From: Paracoccaceae bacterium
Lineage (GTDB): Bacteria; Pseudomonadota; Alphaproteobacteria; Rhodobacterales; Rhodobacteraceae
NCBI GenBank assembly: GCA_027484915.1
Contig: JAIXSA010000126.1
Span: 1-64,000 of the forward strand
Direction of reading: 5' to 3'
DNA length: 64,000 nucleotides
A model generated the notes under the pieces. It did not search any database. It was not told the origin of the DNA and saw nothing but the letters and a program-made list of their open reading frames with translations. Made by a program: the position numbers and the translations under genes. This document shows, piece after piece, positions 58,928 to 64,000 of the stretch (position 1 is its first letter; every line of letters starts with the position of its first letter).

Positions 58928-60064
58928 TCAGTCCATCCACTCCGGCCGGTCGAAGCCCAACGCCTGCGGGTCGTAGAGATAGGCAGCTCCGAAGCCGATG
59001 GTCAGCGCCAGAAGCACCGCGAAGGCGATCTTCCAGACCGACCAGGGACGTTCGCCCTGAACCTCGCCCGTCTGGCCGTTGACCAGGAAGCGGTAGCTTT
59101 TCCCGTTGTACTTGTAGGCCGCGGTCCAGATCGGCAAAAGGATGTGCTTGAAGGTCTCGTCCGACCAGTCGGTGTCCACGTCATTGACCCGCTGCTCGTC
59201 CCCGCCGATGTCGCGGCGCACGTCCTGCAGGATCACCGCCGCCATCCGCTCACGCGCTTCCGTGTGCCCGTCGGCGAGGCTCACGGTATACCCCTCGGCC
59301 TGGAAGCCCGCCAGGTACTCCGGCCCATAGGGCACCAGCGCGCCCAGGTCCCAGGGCGTCAGCTCATCCCCCAACCGTCCTGGCAGGCTGCCCGAGGCCA
59401 TGATCAGCACGTCGTCGAAATCTCGCGCTACCCGGCCCGAGGCGGGATACCAGCGCGTATGCCGCACCTGTTCCTGCCGCGTCTCCATCCGTCCGTTCAC
59501 GCGGACCTGCACTGTCCGCGTCTCATAATAATACTCGCCCCGCTGGCCGGTGTAGCGGCTTTGCGTGTCCGCATCGAAGGTCCAGAACGGGACATAGACC
59601 CCGTTCATCGACCGCCCCTTGCGCGCATACTCCAGCAAAGTGTTCGGCGCGAACCACAGACCGCCCATCCAGGCCGTCAGCGCCTTGTGCGCCTGCGCCT
59701 CGTCCAGCGCGAAGGGGATCAGCGCCTGCGGCTTGATGTGGCGCGTCGTGCCGGTGTCCAGCACCACGGGCGTCGCACAGAACGGGCATTCGGTGGCATG
59801 GGTCGCACCCGAAATCTCGACCAAGGCCCCGCAGTTCGGGCAGGTGGTCGTCCGCACCTCGACCATGTGGCTGTCGGCCAGGTCGTCCTGCAACCCCTTC
59901 GCCAGGTCGAGTTCCCCCAGCGCCCGCGCCCGTTTCGGCGCTGCTGCCTGGGGGATTTCCTGCACATGTCCGCAGTGGTCGCAGACCAGCTGCGTCTGGC
60001 CCGGAGCGAAGCGCAGTTGCGCCCCGCATTGGTCACAGGGCCAGCGGTATTCGTCCTGGGGCAT
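58928..60064 (-). CDS. Membrane-anchored double zinc-ribbon protein (YdjG-like)
   Basis: A 378-residue protein often misnamed a PriA-like helicase; no helicase motifs are present. It has two N-terminal zinc ribbons: Cys10/Cys13 with Cys28/Cys31, and Cys75/Cys78 with Cys93/Cys96. A central domain follows (FWTFDADTQSRYTGQRGEYY), then a late region FKHILLPIWTAAYKYNGKSYRFLVNGQTGEV, and one membrane helix near residues 345-363. It resembles Bacillus YdjG, which works with the SPFH protein YdjI. It starts one base after the SPFH gene and is the last gene of the five-gene operon. Confidence 0.84.
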   Translation of the reverse strand: MPQDEYRWPCDQCGAQLRFAPGQTQLVCDHCGHVQEIPQAAAPKRARALGELDLAKGLQDDLADSHMVEVRTTTCPNCGALVEISGATHATECPFCATPVVLDTGTTRHIKPQALIPFALDEAQAHKALTAWMGGLWFAPNTLLEYARKGRSMNGVYVPFWTFDADTQSRYTGQRGEYYYETRTVQVRVNGRMETRQEQVRHTRWYPASGRVARDFDDVLIMASGSLPGRLGDELTPWDLGALVPYGPEYLAGFQAEGYTVSLADGHTEARERMAAVILQDVRRDIGGDEQRVNDVDTDWSDETFKHILLPIWTAAYKYNGKSYRFLVNGQTGEVQGERPWSVWKIAFAVLLALTIGFGAAYLYDPQALGFDRPEWMD

Positions 60065-60065
60065 C

Positions 60066-61166
60066 TCAGGCTTTTGGCAGGGGTGGGGGCATCTGGTCCA
60101 AGAGCCGCGCCAGTTCCGTATCGGCGGCCATCTTCCAGCCGTCCTGTCCGGCGGTCCAGACCATCGTGGCGCGCGTCAGACGACCATCGGCCGCGGCCTT
60201 CGCAAGCTCCGCCTCACCGAACGGACCCGAGGTCGTTCCGTCCACCGCAAGATGCCAGACCTTGCCCGCCGGCGGCGGTGGGGGAGGGGGTGGCGGTGCG
60301 GCAGCCGCCCCCGGCTGTGCCCCCCACGGCCCCATGTTCTGCGCCATCGAGGCACCCATGCCCATGCCCATCCCGGCCCCCATCGCCGAGCCCATCGCCG
60401 ACCCCGGCTGGCTTAGGCTTTCGGCGGCGTTGTATTGCATGTAGCGGTTCAGGTCGCCCACCACGCCCATCGAGGTGCGCTTGTCCAAGGCCTTTTCGAC
60501 ATCTTCCGGCAGGCTGATGTTCTCGATGTAGAATTCCGGGATCGAGATCCCGTATTCCCCCACCTGCGGCGCGATGGCATTGGCGATGATCTTGCCCAGG
60601 TCGGCCAAGTTCGCTGCCATGTCCAGCACCGGGATGCCCGACTTTGCCAGCACCTGGGACGCAGACTGCACGATGATGTTGCGGATCTGGAAGCTGATCT
60701 CGTCGGCGGTGAACTCGCCGTCCGTCCCCACGATCTCGGTCATGAACTTGCCGGGGTCGGTCACCCGCATGGAATAGGTGCCAAAAGCCCGCAGGCGGAT
60801 CGGCCCGAACTCGGGGTCGCGCGCCATGATCGGGTTCTTTGTTCCCCATTTCTGGTCGTTGAAGCGGGTGGTGTTGACGAAATAGACCTCGGACTTGAAC
60901 GGCGACTGGAACCCGTGGTCCCAGTGCTGCAGCGTCGTCAGGATCGGCATGTTGTTGGTCTCCAGCATGTAGAGACCGGGCTGGAACACGTCGGCGAGCT
61001 GCCCTTCATGGATGAAGACCGCCGCCTGGCCTTCACGCACCGTCAGCTTGGCACCGTACTTGATCGCCTGACCCCGGCGGTCAAACCGCCAGACCATCGT
61101 GTCCCGTGTATCATCCAGCCAGGAAATGACATCGATGAATTCGCCTTTGAGGAAATCGAAGACCAT
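60066..61166 (-). CDS. SPFH-domain protein with C-terminal GYF_2 domain (YdjI-like)
   Basis: A 366-residue scaffold protein. Residues 1-290 are an SPFH (band 7/flotillin-type) domain of the virion-core/YdjI group: VWRFDRRGQAIKYGAKLTVREGQAAVFIHEG, RAFGTYSMRVTDPGKFMTEIVG and YGISIPEFYIENISLPEDVEKALDKR. A methionine/glycine-rich stretch (about 255-280) and a run of nine prolines lead to a GYF_2 domain (WHLAVDGTTSGPFGEAELAKAAADGRL) at about 305-360. There is no obvious membrane helix. It lies between the DUF2927 lipoprotein and the zinc-ribbon protein in one transcription unit. Confidence 0.9.
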   Translation of the reverse strand: MVFDFLKGEFIDVISWLDDTRDTMVWRFDRRGQAIKYGAKLTVREGQAAVFIHEGQLADVFQPGLYMLETNNMPILTTLQHWDHGFQSPFKSEVYFVNTTRFNDQKWGTKNPIMARDPEFGPIRLRAFGTYSMRVTDPGKFMTEIVGTDGEFTADEISFQIRNIIVQSASQVLAKSGIPVLDMAANLADLGKIIANAIAPQVGEYGISIPEFYIENISLPEDVEKALDKRTSMGVVGDLNRYMQYNAAESLSQPGSAMGSAMGAGMGMGMGASMAQNMGPWGAQPGAAAAPPPPPPPPPAGKVWHLAVDGTTSGPFGEAELAKAAADGRLTRATMVWTAGQDGWKMAADTELARLLDQMPPPLPKA

Positions 61167-61189
61167 TGGGTGTCACCCTCCGTTTGGGG

Positions 61190-62122
61190 TCAACTTTCGC
61201 CGCCGGTCATCCGGCGCGCAAGGGATTCGACGATGGGACGCGCTTCCGCCGCCGTCATGCCGGGGCGCAGCTCGGCGCTGTAGAGGATGCGCAGCATCAT
61301 CTCGTCCTGATCGGTCAGCAGGGCGAATTCCTCGTCGTCGTTGAAGATCGAGGGCCGAGCGCGGGGCGAGTCATTCGGCAGTCCCAAGCCCTGCGCGATC
61401 TCTTCATGGAAGCACGACAGGCGCAGAAGGTCCGGGTTCTCGGCCCGGATCACCGCGACGGCATGGCGGTGCAGATGGCTTTCCGACCCCGAGATGGCAA
61501 AGACGTTACAATAGGTCGTCTGGTTCATTTGCGTGACTGCCTGAATCACGTCCGGTGCGATGCCGATCCGCAGGCCCGCGAGTTCCGGTCCCAACGCAAT
61601 GCGTTCGTCTTCGGACACGATGTAGACCCAGAAGTTCGGGGCTGCATCGGTCAGGCCGATGGGGTGACCCGTGATCTGGGATAGCCGTGCAAGATAACTT
61701 GCGATCCGCGCCCGGTCGGTGGCCCGCTTTTCCGCCGGAATCGAAGGTCCGAACCGTACCGAGACCCGAATCGGATCATTCCAGCGCGTCAGCGCGGACG
61801 CCGTCTCTTCGCGGGTGATGCCGCCGCGGCTGCGGGTAAACTCCTGAAACAGGGCGATCTTCAGAAAGTTTTCGGTCAGCCGTTCCGGCCGGATCGGGAT
61901 ATCCGTCCCTGGATCGGTCCGCAGCATACCTTCCCGCAAGAGTACCTGCTGTACTTGCGCATAATAGGCCGCCGCCGCCGCACTTCTAGGTGTGGGCGGG
62001 GGCGGCGCCACTGGCGCGACCGGCGACGCGGGCGCCACACGCGCGGACACGCCGAGGCAACCGGCAAGCGCCAGGCAGGCCATTCCGCCGATCAGAGATT
62101 TCACCGCACTTGAACGCGCCAT
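61190..62122 (-). CDS. DUF2927 lipoprotein, gluzincin-like
   Basis: A 310-residue lipoprotein with signal peptide and lipobox LAGC (Cys22), then a proline/alanine-rich linker (about 27-47). The DUF2927 body contains a C-F-HEEIAQGLGLPND segment that looks like an HExxxQxxG metal-protease-like site, followed by SIFNDDEEFALLTDQDEMML. Whether it is an active peptidase is not known. It is the third gene of the XpaC-TelA operon, nine bases after TelA. Confidence 0.86.
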   Translation of the reverse strand: MARSSAVKSLIGGMACLALAGCLGVSARVAPASPVAPVAPPPPTPRSAAAAAYYAQVQQVLLREGMLRTDPGTDIPIRPERLTENFLKIALFQEFTRSRGGITREETASALTRWNDPIRVSVRFGPSIPAEKRATDRARIASYLARLSQITGHPIGLTDAAPNFWVYIVSEDERIALGPELAGLRIGIAPDVIQAVTQMNQTTYCNVFAISGSESHLHRHAVAVIRAENPDLLRLSCFHEEIAQGLGLPNDSPRARPSIFNDDEEFALLTDQDEMMLRILYSAELRPGMTAAEARPIVESLARRMTGGES

Positions 62123-62131
62123 CCTGTCCTT

Positions 62132-63304
62132 TCAGGCCGTCTGTGCCGGAGCCGACTGCCGTGCCTTTGCCGAAGCCAGCGTCTCGCGCAGCTCGGCCTC
62201 CATCTTCACCAGTTCCACCTCGGCCGCCGCCCGGCGCGCCTTGCCCTCGTCGGCGATGGCAAGGCTTTCGTTGATCGTGGCGATCAGCGTGGCATTGGCC
62301 GCCTTGATCGTCTCGATGTCGAAGACCCCACGCTCCATCTCCTCGCGCACCACCTTGTTGGCGGCCTGCAGGTTCTCGGCATTGGCCTTCAGCAATTCGT
62401 TCGTCAGGTCGTTCGCCTCACGCACAGCCTCGGCCGCTTCCTTCGACCGCTGGATCGTCACCGCCTGTGCCAGCTGCGTCTCCCACAGCGGCACGGTGTT
62501 GACGAGGGTCGAGTTGATCTTGGTCACCAGCGACTTGTCATTCTCCTGCACCAGCCGGATCGAGGGCAGTGACTGCATCGTCACCTGCCGGGTCAAACGC
62601 AGGTCATGCACCCGGCGCTCCAGATCATCCCGCGCCGCGCGCAGATCGCGCAGCTCCTGCGCCTTCATCACCTTGTCCGCTTCGGGGGCCGCCGTCACCT
62701 CGGCCTCCTTGGCCGGGATCGCCGTGCCGTCCGTCTCGGCCAGCTTCGCCTCTCCGGCGGCGATGTACAGCGCCAGCTCGTTGTAGAAGGTCAGCGTCTT
62801 TTCATAGAGCAGGTCCAGGCTCTTGATATCCTTGAGCAGCGTATGCTCATGCGTCAGAAGCTCACCCGTGATCTTGTCGATCTGCCCCTGCACGTCCTCG
62901 TACTGCGCCACGAACTCGGCGAAGGGCGCCGCGCGGCCCAGAAGCTTCTCCCACCAGCTCGACTCGCGCCGCAGGTCCAGCTCCTCGACAGCGAAACCGC
63001 GGATCGTGGTGACGATCTTGCGAAGCGAGTCGCCTGCAGGCCCCACATCCTTGTTCTTCACGTCCTGCAACATCGCCTGGCTGATCACCTGCAGCTCGGC
63101 CTGCGCGGACGAGCCGAAGGCGATGATCGACTGAGTGTTCGACAGGTCCACTTCGTCCATCCGCTTGCGGATTGCCTCGGCCTTGTCCGAAGGTGCTGCC
63201 TCCAGCGGCACGACCTCGGCCATCGGCTCGGGCAGGATCACGGCATTGACCTTCTCGACCTCGGTCAGAAGGGCCTGCGCATCGGATTGAACGGTTGTGG
63301 ACAT
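62132..63304 (-). CDS. TelA-family protein (toxic anion resistance)
   Basis: A 390-residue, mainly helical cytoplasmic protein of the TelA family, named for tellurite resistance but generally tied to envelope stress. Landmarks are FGSSAQAELQVISQAMLQDVKNKDVGPAGDSLRKIV, WWEKLLGRAAPF, QSLPSIRLVQENDKSLVTKINSTLVNTVPLWETQLAQAV and NAENLQAANKVVREEMERGVFDIETIKAAN. Long coiled-coil stretches cover residues 140-270 and 290-370. The ATG at 63304 has GGGAGA upstream, 17 bases after the XpaC stop. Confidence 0.93.
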   Translation of the reverse strand: MSTTVQSDAQALLTEVEKVNAVILPEPMAEVVPLEAAPSDKAEAIRKRMDEVDLSNTQSIIAFGSSAQAELQVISQAMLQDVKNKDVGPAGDSLRKIVTTIRGFAVEELDLRRESSWWEKLLGRAAPFAEFVAQYEDVQGQIDKITGELLTHEHTLLKDIKSLDLLYEKTLTFYNELALYIAAGEAKLAETDGTAIPAKEAEVTAAPEADKVMKAQELRDLRAARDDLERRVHDLRLTRQVTMQSLPSIRLVQENDKSLVTKINSTLVNTVPLWETQLAQAVTIQRSKEAAEAVREANDLTNELLKANAENLQAANKVVREEMERGVFDIETIKAANATLIATINESLAIADEGKARRAAAEVELVKMEAELRETLASAKARQSAPAQTA

Positions 63305-63321
63305 CGGAAGTCTCCCTTGGA

Positions 63322-64000
63322 TCAATGATCAAGCTTCAAACGGTCGCGCAACACGGCGATCTCGACATCCAGATCGGTGCGGCTGTTGGAAAGAAAAGTG
63401 GTAGTCTTCTGAGCGAAGGTGGTTTCCAGATCGGTCAGCAGCGCCTCATAGTCGCTGCGGGCACTGGCGTCCCGGGTCTGGGCGTAATGGTCGGCGAACT
63501 TCACCGTCGCGTCGCGGGCGCCCATCAGGTAGACCGACAGGTACTTCCGCGCCGCCGTCAGGTCGCCAGGATCGCCCTCGATCGTGCGAAAAAGCCCCCG
63601 CGCCACGCCCGAAAACTGCGCGACGCGCTTCTCAAGGCTGCGGTCCTTCGCCCGCAGGATCGCATCCTGCATCGCGGACAGATAGGCCTCGCCCTCTTCC
63701 ACGGCCTTTGCGACCCGGCCGGTCTGGAAGGCGTCGATCCCTTCCATCCCCTTGTCGGCCATCGGGTCCAGCCCGAACGCCGCCAGATGCAGCCCCGCCC
63801 CGACGACAGCGTAAAGGACCGGGTACACAAGACCCTGATCGGCGATCACGCCCCCCACGGCCAGCGCCGCCCCGGTCGCCACCGCCCCCGCCGCCTTGCG
63901 CGGGAAGGCTGGCCGACGCGCAAGCTTGCGGGCGTTGTAGGCCGCCTCGGCCGCCATCCCTTCGCGGGTAAGCCAAGCTGCCAGCACGATCAGCCCTCCG
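63322..64000 (-). CDS. XpaC-family (5-bromo-4-chloroindolyl phosphate hydrolysis) protein, partial
   Basis: The C-terminal 226 residues of an XpaC-family protein; the frame runs open through the right edge, so the true start lies outside. A GTG at 63987 with GGAGGG upstream exists, but the residues before it (GGLIV) continue the family's second membrane helix, so it is probably internal. Visible parts are a helix near VLAAWLTREG, VATGAALAVGGVIADQGL and the coiled helical remainder with DAILRAKDRSLEKRVAQFSGVARGLF and LDVEIAVLRDRLKLDH. XpaC and TelA genes are neighbours in many bacteria. Confidence 0.87.
   Translation of the reverse strand, partial: GGLIVLAAWLTREGMAAEAAYNARKLARRPAFPRKAAGAVATGAALAVGGVIADQGLVYPVLYAVVGAGLHLAAFGLDPMADKGMEGIDAFQTGRVAKAVEEGEAYLSAMQDAILRAKDRSLEKRVAQFSGVARGLFRTIEGDPGDLTAARKYLSVYLMGARDATVKFADHYAQTRDASARSDYEALLTDLETTFAQKTTTFLSNSRTDLDVEIAVLRDRLKLDH

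Follow-up and report, generated by a model that had tools for sequence, protein, structure and literature searches.

In Bacillus subtilis, the SPFH protein YdjI requires YdjG/H and positions PspA, and deletion of ydjI reduces membrane fluidity (PMC8581546); YdjG consists of two zinc ribbons, a YpeB-related domain and a transmembrane segment (PMC11237479), as stated in the excerpts of these sources. The xpaC-yaaN pair of the same species belongs to the core sigma-W regulon (PMC3498285), and XpaC is upregulated in an Enterococcus faecium liaR mutant (PMC10269926), again according to excerpts of the papers. Here we describe an operon of a Paracoccaceae bacterium (assembly GCA_027484915.1) in which genes of these kinds stand together. 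The window, that is, the whole stretch of DNA analyzed, comprises 64,000 nucleotides of contig JAIXSA010000126.1, and five genes on its minus strand follow one another in the order XpaC-TelA-DUF2927-SPFH-zinc ribbon, with intergenic gaps of 17, 9, 23 and 1 bases. These five genes, their families and their spacings, as set out in an original prediction made from the sequence alone, were borne out by the coordinates of the open reading frames (ORFs) and by Pfam matches; the XpaC gene is indeed present but is cut by the window end, the full gene extending to 64185 on a contig that runs on to 66484. A sixth gene, unannotated and past the window end, encodes a microprotein. The module is real and strongly conserved, and it joins known families in a new combination.

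Set against pspA-ydjGHI, the locus shares a YdjI-type SPFH protein without a membrane helix and a neighbor with two ribbons, a further domain and one membrane segment; the likeness to YdjI and YdjG proposed in the original prediction holds in this layout, a helix-less SPFH protein beside a double zinc-ribbon membrane protein, as far as the excerpts describe the Bacillus pair (PMC11237479, PMC8581546). The SPFH protein (60066..61166, like all module features on the minus strand; 366 residues, no membrane helix by hydropathy) combines a Band_7_1 domain (PF13421, E = 2.3e-102) with a C-terminal GYF_2 domain at residues 304-349 (60120..60257; PF14237, E = 9.1e-16), whereas the YdjI SPFH protein has a C-terminal zinc ribbon. 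The zinc-ribbon protein (58928..60064, 378 residues, characterized by alignment and hydropathy) carries two CxxC...CxxC ribbons (C10/C13/C28/C31 and C75/C78/C93/C96), followed by a middle domain and a single C-terminal membrane helix predicted from hydropathy (58973-59029). Its ribbons fall under the Pfam cut-offs (best DZR, 20.7 bits against a cut-off of 27.3), and in an alignment of 15 zinc-ribbon proteins, the window's included, six cysteines are invariant and two more nearly so. Because two ribbons are combined with one C-terminal helix, the domains of this protein should face the cytosol.

The operon differs from pspA-ydjGHI in lacking PspA, of which no gene lies within the window's operon, and in lacking the TPM protein (YdjH), the five window proteins giving no Pfam match to the TPM domain at E up to 1; XpaC, TelA, DUF2927 and the microprotein are extra here. 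With B. subtilis xpaC-yaaN it shares an xpaC gene directly ahead of a TelA-family gene, YaaN being what we take to be a TelA-family protein, whereas here the microprotein stands in front and the DUF2927, SPFH and zinc-ribbon genes are added. The envelope-stress theme previously suggested for XpaC and TelA finds its precedent in the sigma-W regulon membership of xpaC-yaaN in B. subtilis, as given in the cited excerpt (PMC3498285).

Conservation of the module and its two older parts

Conservation was assessed in a sample of 101 genomes of one order (the order sample; 55 genera, one family), identified as Rhodobacterales through named relatives; the nearest of these among the matches listed was Rhodobacter sp. 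SY28-1, with an SPFH protein 92% identical to that of the window. A TelA match was present in 100 of the 101 genomes (partial in one of them, G085) and a YdjI-type SPFH domain in 98; in 97 of the latter, SPFH follows TelA on one strand at a distance of up to 5 kb. The full xpaC-telA-duf-spfh-zr order was found in 78 of 101 genomes; another 12 showed the first four genes with the zinc-ribbon gene outside the stretch read; in five of these the contig itself runs out at SPFH or shortly beyond it, and in the other seven the zinc-ribbon gene is located elsewhere. Overall, 98 genomes hold a zinc-ribbon gene (85 of them in module stretches, the others being 13 of the remaining 16), and they are precisely those with SPFH. 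XpaC is missing from the module stretch in 4 of 101, and one genome (G048) has TelA-DUF2927 with its SPFH and zinc-ribbon genes together on another contig. A gene order shared so widely, across genomes of 55 genera, is more than chance; the conserved order that the original prediction proposed looking for in relatives is order-wide, and conservation is therefore not limited to close strains.

The same arrangement was seen in a named set, the best 80 of more loci found through SPFH (Rhodobacter, Roseovarius, Ruegeria, Paracoccus and others): the full order was present in 65, two more had the full order with a second xpaC-like ORF, and two further loci were cut by contig edges. XpaC was not in the stretch in six, and its true absence at the locus is shown only for two Paracoccus loci (L086, L152), because the other four (L076, L089, L113, L119) have fewer than 600 bases upstream of telA. 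The SPFH proteins keep a distinctive C-terminus in both samples. In the window, a proline run stands right before GYF_2 (about 60270-60299) and a PPPLP tail forms the C-terminus (60069-60092); proline runs on both sides of GYF_2 were found by pattern in 79 of the 80 named loci and by eye in the 80th, and among full-length SPFH proteins of the order sample the C-terminal run was present in 93 of 94 and the run ahead of GYF in 92 of 94. A profile search matched GYF_2 to the structure 7z3c, a domain of Adventurous gliding motility protein X (E = 7.1e-7).

Beyond the order, the two ends of the module come apart. In a class sample of 115 genomes, mostly one per family, TelA was found in 9 and SPFH in 5, TelA being present in all five SPFH genomes; two of these, from two class families outside the order (G156 and G163, loci L033 and L034), carry XpaC-TelA-SPFH-zinc ribbon without DUF2927. 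In the phylum sample, SPFH occurred in 32 and TelA in 34 of 249 genomes, and once the 13 own-order genomes were set aside SPFH remained in 19, five of them also with TelA (G112, G221, G278, G392, G416). No TelA lay near SPFH in the phylum-sample stretches read (L037, L053-L065). In those stretches the zinc-ribbon profile gave strong matches at L053 and L055-L060 and weak ones at L061-L064, with no match in L037, L054 or L065; the zinc-ribbon proteins of L053 and L056-L060 are 31-45% identical to that of the window. On Comamonas, Vibrio and Tsukamurella plasmids, the SPFH neighbor matches the same profile at 3e-142, 3e-112 and 5e-81, respectively. These pairs resemble the window in having both genes side by side, the Comamonas pair being annotated as 'SPFH and helix-turn-helix domain-containing protein' and 'TFIIB-type zinc ribbon-containing protein', and differ in standing without TelA, XpaC or DUF2927 in the stretches read and often in the adaptor at the SPFH end.

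The C-terminal adaptor of SPFH varies while its core stays constant (L037, L053-L065, L153; mostly by eye): a GYF_2 end was also seen in L053-L056 (by eye), and the Vibrio plasmid copy aligns across the GYF part; a helix-turn-helix end is present in the Comamonas copy (by annotation) and in L058-L060 (by eye); and other loci show a SHOCT-like end (by eye). At two loci (L061:5445-6935 and L062:4806-6587) the place of the zinc-ribbon protein beside SPFH is taken by a larger DUF4178 protein, whose ribbon match is weak at best. On the Vibrio coralliilyticus plasmid (NZ_CP048695, L153), SPFH and its zinc-ribbon partner have as their neighbor a divergent cluster that includes genes for TIR-domain and TRAFs-binding proteins. 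In another phylum member (L068), XpaC-TelA adjoins a short protein that combines GYF_2 with a Band_7_1 match below the threshold, and this short SPFH/GYF gene is followed by an unmatched gene and then by two SLT lytic transglycosylase genes (L068:5152-10296); this is an independent link of TelA to SPFH-GYF and to cell-wall enzymes. Taken together, these distributions identify the module as a union of two older parts, microprotein-XpaC-TelA(-DUF2927) and SPFH-zinc ribbon.

From gene context and one confidently predicted fold, we tentatively propose, at somewhat less than even confidence, that the six genes form a single maintenance complex associated with the cytoplasmic membrane. Several observations weigh against this. 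The zinc-ribbon gene is located elsewhere in seven order genomes, three of the 101 have the module without DUF2927, one (G081) keeps XpaC-TelA-DUF2927 without SPFH or zinc ribbon, and another (G011) has DUF2927 as its sole module gene. Five of the 80 named loci hold SPFH-zinc ribbon alone, without TelA; one of these (L083) is at a contig edge, and the other four genomes, including Paracoccus and Rhodosalinus, carry TelA elsewhere, TelA being present somewhere in all six genomes checked (these four plus those of L086 and L152). Of 79 named loci, 36 have more than 400 bases between the SPFH and zinc-ribbon genes, with unrelated genes inserted in several, and in one class-sample genome (G112) TelA and SPFH are far apart. 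Furthermore, no envelope-stress promoter was identified among 62 upstream sequences, and the likeness of the zinc-ribbon protein to YdjG is one of layout as described, not of sequence comparison. By eye, the inserts between SPFH and zinc-ribbon genes (for example in L114, L125, L100 and L129) include cytochrome b561-like, RidA-like and phosphatase-like genes.

Alternatively, microprotein-XpaC-TelA-DUF2927 and SPFH-zinc ribbon may be two independent membrane modules that share a transcript for joint stress-induced expression and form separate complexes, an explanation that we regard as possible, if rather doubtful. It fits the SPFH-zinc ribbon pairs that stand without TelA or XpaC in the stretch at L053, L055-L060 and on the three plasmids, the Paracoccus and Rhodosalinus genomes with TelA elsewhere, and the converse case of G081. 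It fits less well with the TelA-SPFH adjacency, which is kept in 97 of 98 genomes despite the entry of unrelated genes between the SPFH and zinc-ribbon genes, and which recurs in two other class families and, with a different SPFH-GYF, in L068.

The DUF2927 lipoprotein

The DUF2927 protein (61190..62122; PF11150, E = 1.6e-59) is a predicted lipoprotein with an LAGC lipobox (by eye), a proline-rich linker and a predicted metzincin-fold domain at residues ~86-284. Its AlphaFold2 (AF2) model, built from 62 sequences, reached a predicted local distance difference test (pLDDT) score of 90.5 and a predicted template-modeling (pTM) score of 0.84. The top Foldseek rows were matrix metalloproteinases and a Streptomyces zinc protease (snapalysin), at a probability of 1.00 and a best E of 1.1e-3, no row being found at E <= 0.001, and VIA gave Z 11.9 to karilysin and matrix metalloproteinases over 147-152 residues, with a root-mean-square deviation of 3.0 at 152 residues. 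DUF2927 is thus confidently predicted to adopt a metzincin (matrix-metalloprotease) fold. PDB sequence searches with DUF2927, by profile and by single sequence, returned no metzincin, and the histidine-bearing PF11150 members gave sub-threshold matches to Matrixin, M57 and Astacin (E 0.08-0.25).

The active site of this predicted fold has been rewritten. The motif CxHEExAQGLGLxND places EExxQxxGxxND (residues 240-251, 61370..61405, by alignment) where metzincins have HExxHxxGxxH (or D at the last position), and an alignment of 62 module DUF2927 proteins shows no substitution in any of them at E240, E241, Q244, G247, N250, D251 or F260. The 'HExxxQ-like site' formerly read in this lipoprotein was a misreading, off by one: H239 is variable, many homologues having V, L, A or I there, whereas conservation is seen at E240, E241, Q244, G247, N250 and D251. 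Histidine-keeping PF11150 members, aligned from the shared Cys237, read CIPHELAHGFGFAHS in L170, CVYHELMHVLGLSGH in L168 and CAVHELMHALGFPGH in L171, the third histidine sitting one residue later in L168 and L171. By sequence alignment within PF11150, not structural superposition, the ligand positions would correspond to E240, Q244 and N250 (or D251) and the catalytic Glu to E241, and the putative Met-turn position is occupied by F260 in 62 of 62 and by Met in L168. The likeness to the karilysin and matrix-metalloproteinase metzincins thus lies in the predicted fold, with the motif Gly and the general-base Glu kept; the His/His/His zinc ligands, in contrast, have become Glu/Gln/Asn, the Met-turn methionine is lost, and the protein is a predicted lipoprotein.

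Outside the module, 17 DUF2927 loci were scanned, matches in G116, G133 and G185 being left out; two (L166, L172) gave no profile match, and among the 15 remaining homologues ten carry EExxQxxGxxND, one has KD instead, three have HExxHxxG and one is degenerate. The three HExxHxxG relatives (L168:7494-8327, L170:3194-3916, L171:6985-7860) are possibly active metallopeptidases, judging from their motifs. No recurring neighbor of DUF2927 was found among the few loci scanned outside the module. The genome of the window holds a second DUF2927 copy (G000:C153:7043-8431, L158), a 463-residue frame with an identical EExxQxxGxxND site that is followed by a VWA/CoxE-like gene, and G001 (L159) also holds a copy with EExxQxxGxxND.

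DUF2927 may still be an enzyme, with Glu, Gln, Asn and Asp binding another metal and E241 acting as the base, although we consider this unlikely. In favor of activity, the site does not vary in 62 of 62 module proteins, catalytic Glu and ligand positions included, and 10 of the 15 non-module homologues have EExxQxxGxxND as well, a tighter constraint than one would expect had the site drifted once activity was lost. A peptide-binding pseudo-enzyme would equally show such conservation, however, and neither the three histidines nor the Met-turn methionine is left; since histidine-bearing relatives (L168, L170, L171) exist in the same family, the site has changed as a whole.

TelA, XpaC and the microprotein

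TelA (62132..63304; PF05816, E = 1.3e-105) is a protein of 390 residues without a membrane helix by hydropathy; its gene starts at an ATG, with a TTG at 63325 as an alternative start upstream. The AF2 model, from 48 close homologues, is weak (pLDDT 69.1, pTM 0.50) and is helical throughout save for isolated residues. No Pfam family other than TelA matched at E up to 1. With this model, Foldseek found nothing at E <= 0.001, and the best VIA matches, at Z 12.5, lay under the caution line for helical proteins and were non-specific, the matches listed being alpha-pore toxins and other helical bundles; PspA, Vipp1 and ESCRT-III entries were absent from the 50 listed rows of either search, an absence that we do not count against such a fold.

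That TelA takes the place of PspA, as had been suggested, is not supported. In this reading, TelA would be a structural stand-in, an ESCRT-III-like membrane-remodeling polymer recruited by the SPFH and zinc-ribbon proteins, which we judge quite improbable. Its helical model would suit this role, the window's genome (95% complete, 173 contigs) gave no PF04012 (PspA) match at E <= 1e-5, and TelA is located where PspA sits beside YdjI-type genes in Bacillus, as far as the excerpt of PMC11237479 describes. PspA is, however, present besides the module in 37 of the 101 order genomes, which makes a one-for-one swap unlikely; in addition, Pfam assigns TelA to its own family alone, and the fold matches of a model at pLDDT 69 are non-specific.

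An operon for tellurite or toxic-anion resistance, like the IncP kla/tel genes, is highly improbable: TelA is distantly related (28.9% identity) to a plasmid protein annotated as tellurium resistance protein KlaB, presumably of IncP type, but, unlike an occasional resistance gene, it is near-universal (100 of 101) and stands beside SPFH and zinc-ribbon membrane proteins. In many cases, tel genes probably guard the cell from membrane stress and not from anions. TelA was not confirmed in any viral contig.

XpaC (63322..64185, its 5' end past the window end at 64000) is a membrane protein of 287 residues (PF10112, E = 3.3e-23, from a scan of its 221-residue in-window part), with two segments above the hydropathy threshold, four hydrophobic stretches by eye, and a C-terminal domain. 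An N-terminal motif resembling MAQRFGGKYSP was found in 93 of 94 xpaC-bearing order genomes (86 by a loose pattern, 7 by eye). The sole XpaC without it, a single case, belongs to G081, which also lacks SPFH and zinc ribbon; at their called starts, the XpaC proteins of L033 and L034 lack the motif too, though they stand beside SPFH.

The gene right ahead of xpaC is a short ORF, ~21-29 codons long according to which start is taken, and encodes a single-helix microprotein. In the window's contig it reads MSGGGIRTLSLVLLVFLVAYVAWSGGA (27 residues, contig 64185-64268, minus strand), and its stop overlaps the xpaC start by one base (TGATG). Such a hydrophobic ORF precedes xpaC in 94 of 94 xpaC-bearing order genomes, 88 found by script and 6 by eye where xpaC starts with GTG or TTG. 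Among the 88, the one-base overlap is present in 47, the remainder lying at most 8 bases away, and a Gly stands third from last in 80. Across 66 named-set sequences the ratio of nonsynonymous to synonymous differences per site was 0.32, as computed from single-base codon differences with pairs uncorrected for relatedness or saturation. The microprotein matched no Pfam or NCBIfam model. The named-set script missed it in L124 and L088 and scored L079 slightly below the cut, and it was not found within 150 bases upstream of telA in L086, L113, L119 and L152.

Upstream of xpaC, about 20 of 62 sequences (L085, L090, L105, L120, L122 and others) show a TTCCCCCTAG-like motif ~20-30 bases ahead of a CCTAAGTT-like box, a combination that is possibly a promoter or regulator site; the TTCCCCCTAG-like motif is absent from the window's own upstream region. 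Flanking the module are, upstream, an rluB-like gene on the same strand and then a deaminase-like gene on the opposite strand, both by eye, and, downstream, a small ORF with an antibiotic-biosynthesis-monooxygenase domain.

Proposed mechanism and significance

Under the single-complex reading, the six gene products would most likely work, by analogy, like Bacillus PspA-YdjGHI in membrane fluidity and repair under envelope stress, with a TelA/XpaC partner instead of PspA. XpaC, TelA, SPFH and the tail-anchored zinc-ribbon protein are all predicted to be cytosolic or membrane proteins. The zinc-ribbon protein may hold SPFH, as a multimeric scaffold, to the inner face of the membrane, in the way that YdjG/H would serve YdjI, and a microprotein-XpaC unit may tether helical TelA to the membrane. 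The proline runs and GYF_2 could link SPFH subunits to one another or bring in a proline-rich partner, GYF_2 possibly binding the neighboring proline run in trans, as suggested previously. DUF2927, lipid-anchored in the periplasm, would no longer cut and would instead bind peptides or misfolded chains, and might thereby report or buffer envelope damage.

A bolder version, which we consider rather unlikely, is that of a PspA-independent trans-envelope machine found order-wide, in which a pseudo-metzincin lipoprotein, its zinc histidines replaced by invariant Glu/Gln/Asn, would sense damage or misfolded chains and signal through microprotein-XpaC to cytosolic TelA and to an SPFH-GYF scaffold held by the tail-anchored zinc-ribbon protein.

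A literature search, with subscription journals and preprints outside its scope, returned no paper on TelA together with XpaC and SPFH, on DUF2927, or on 'toxic anion resistance' together with SPFH, and nothing useful on TelA in Rhodobacterales or on the gliding-motility GYF domain. To the new combination of known families come two additions, namely a microprotein that no Pfam or NCBIfam model covers and a protein of predicted metzincin fold with a rewritten site. The microprotein is short enough for annotation to miss, and DUF2927 gains a predicted fold, a degenerate active site and histidine-bearing relatives for comparison; if the trans-envelope version were true, DUF2927 would be a founding family of non-histidine metzincins or of dedicated pseudo-metzincin sensors. 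TelA and XpaC, old families of unclear job, are here linked, in almost all genomes examined from a major bacterial order, with an SPFH scaffold, an anchor bearing zinc ribbons, a lipoprotein shaped like a protease and a microprotein, and the question of what TelA does becomes a testable one about a single complex.

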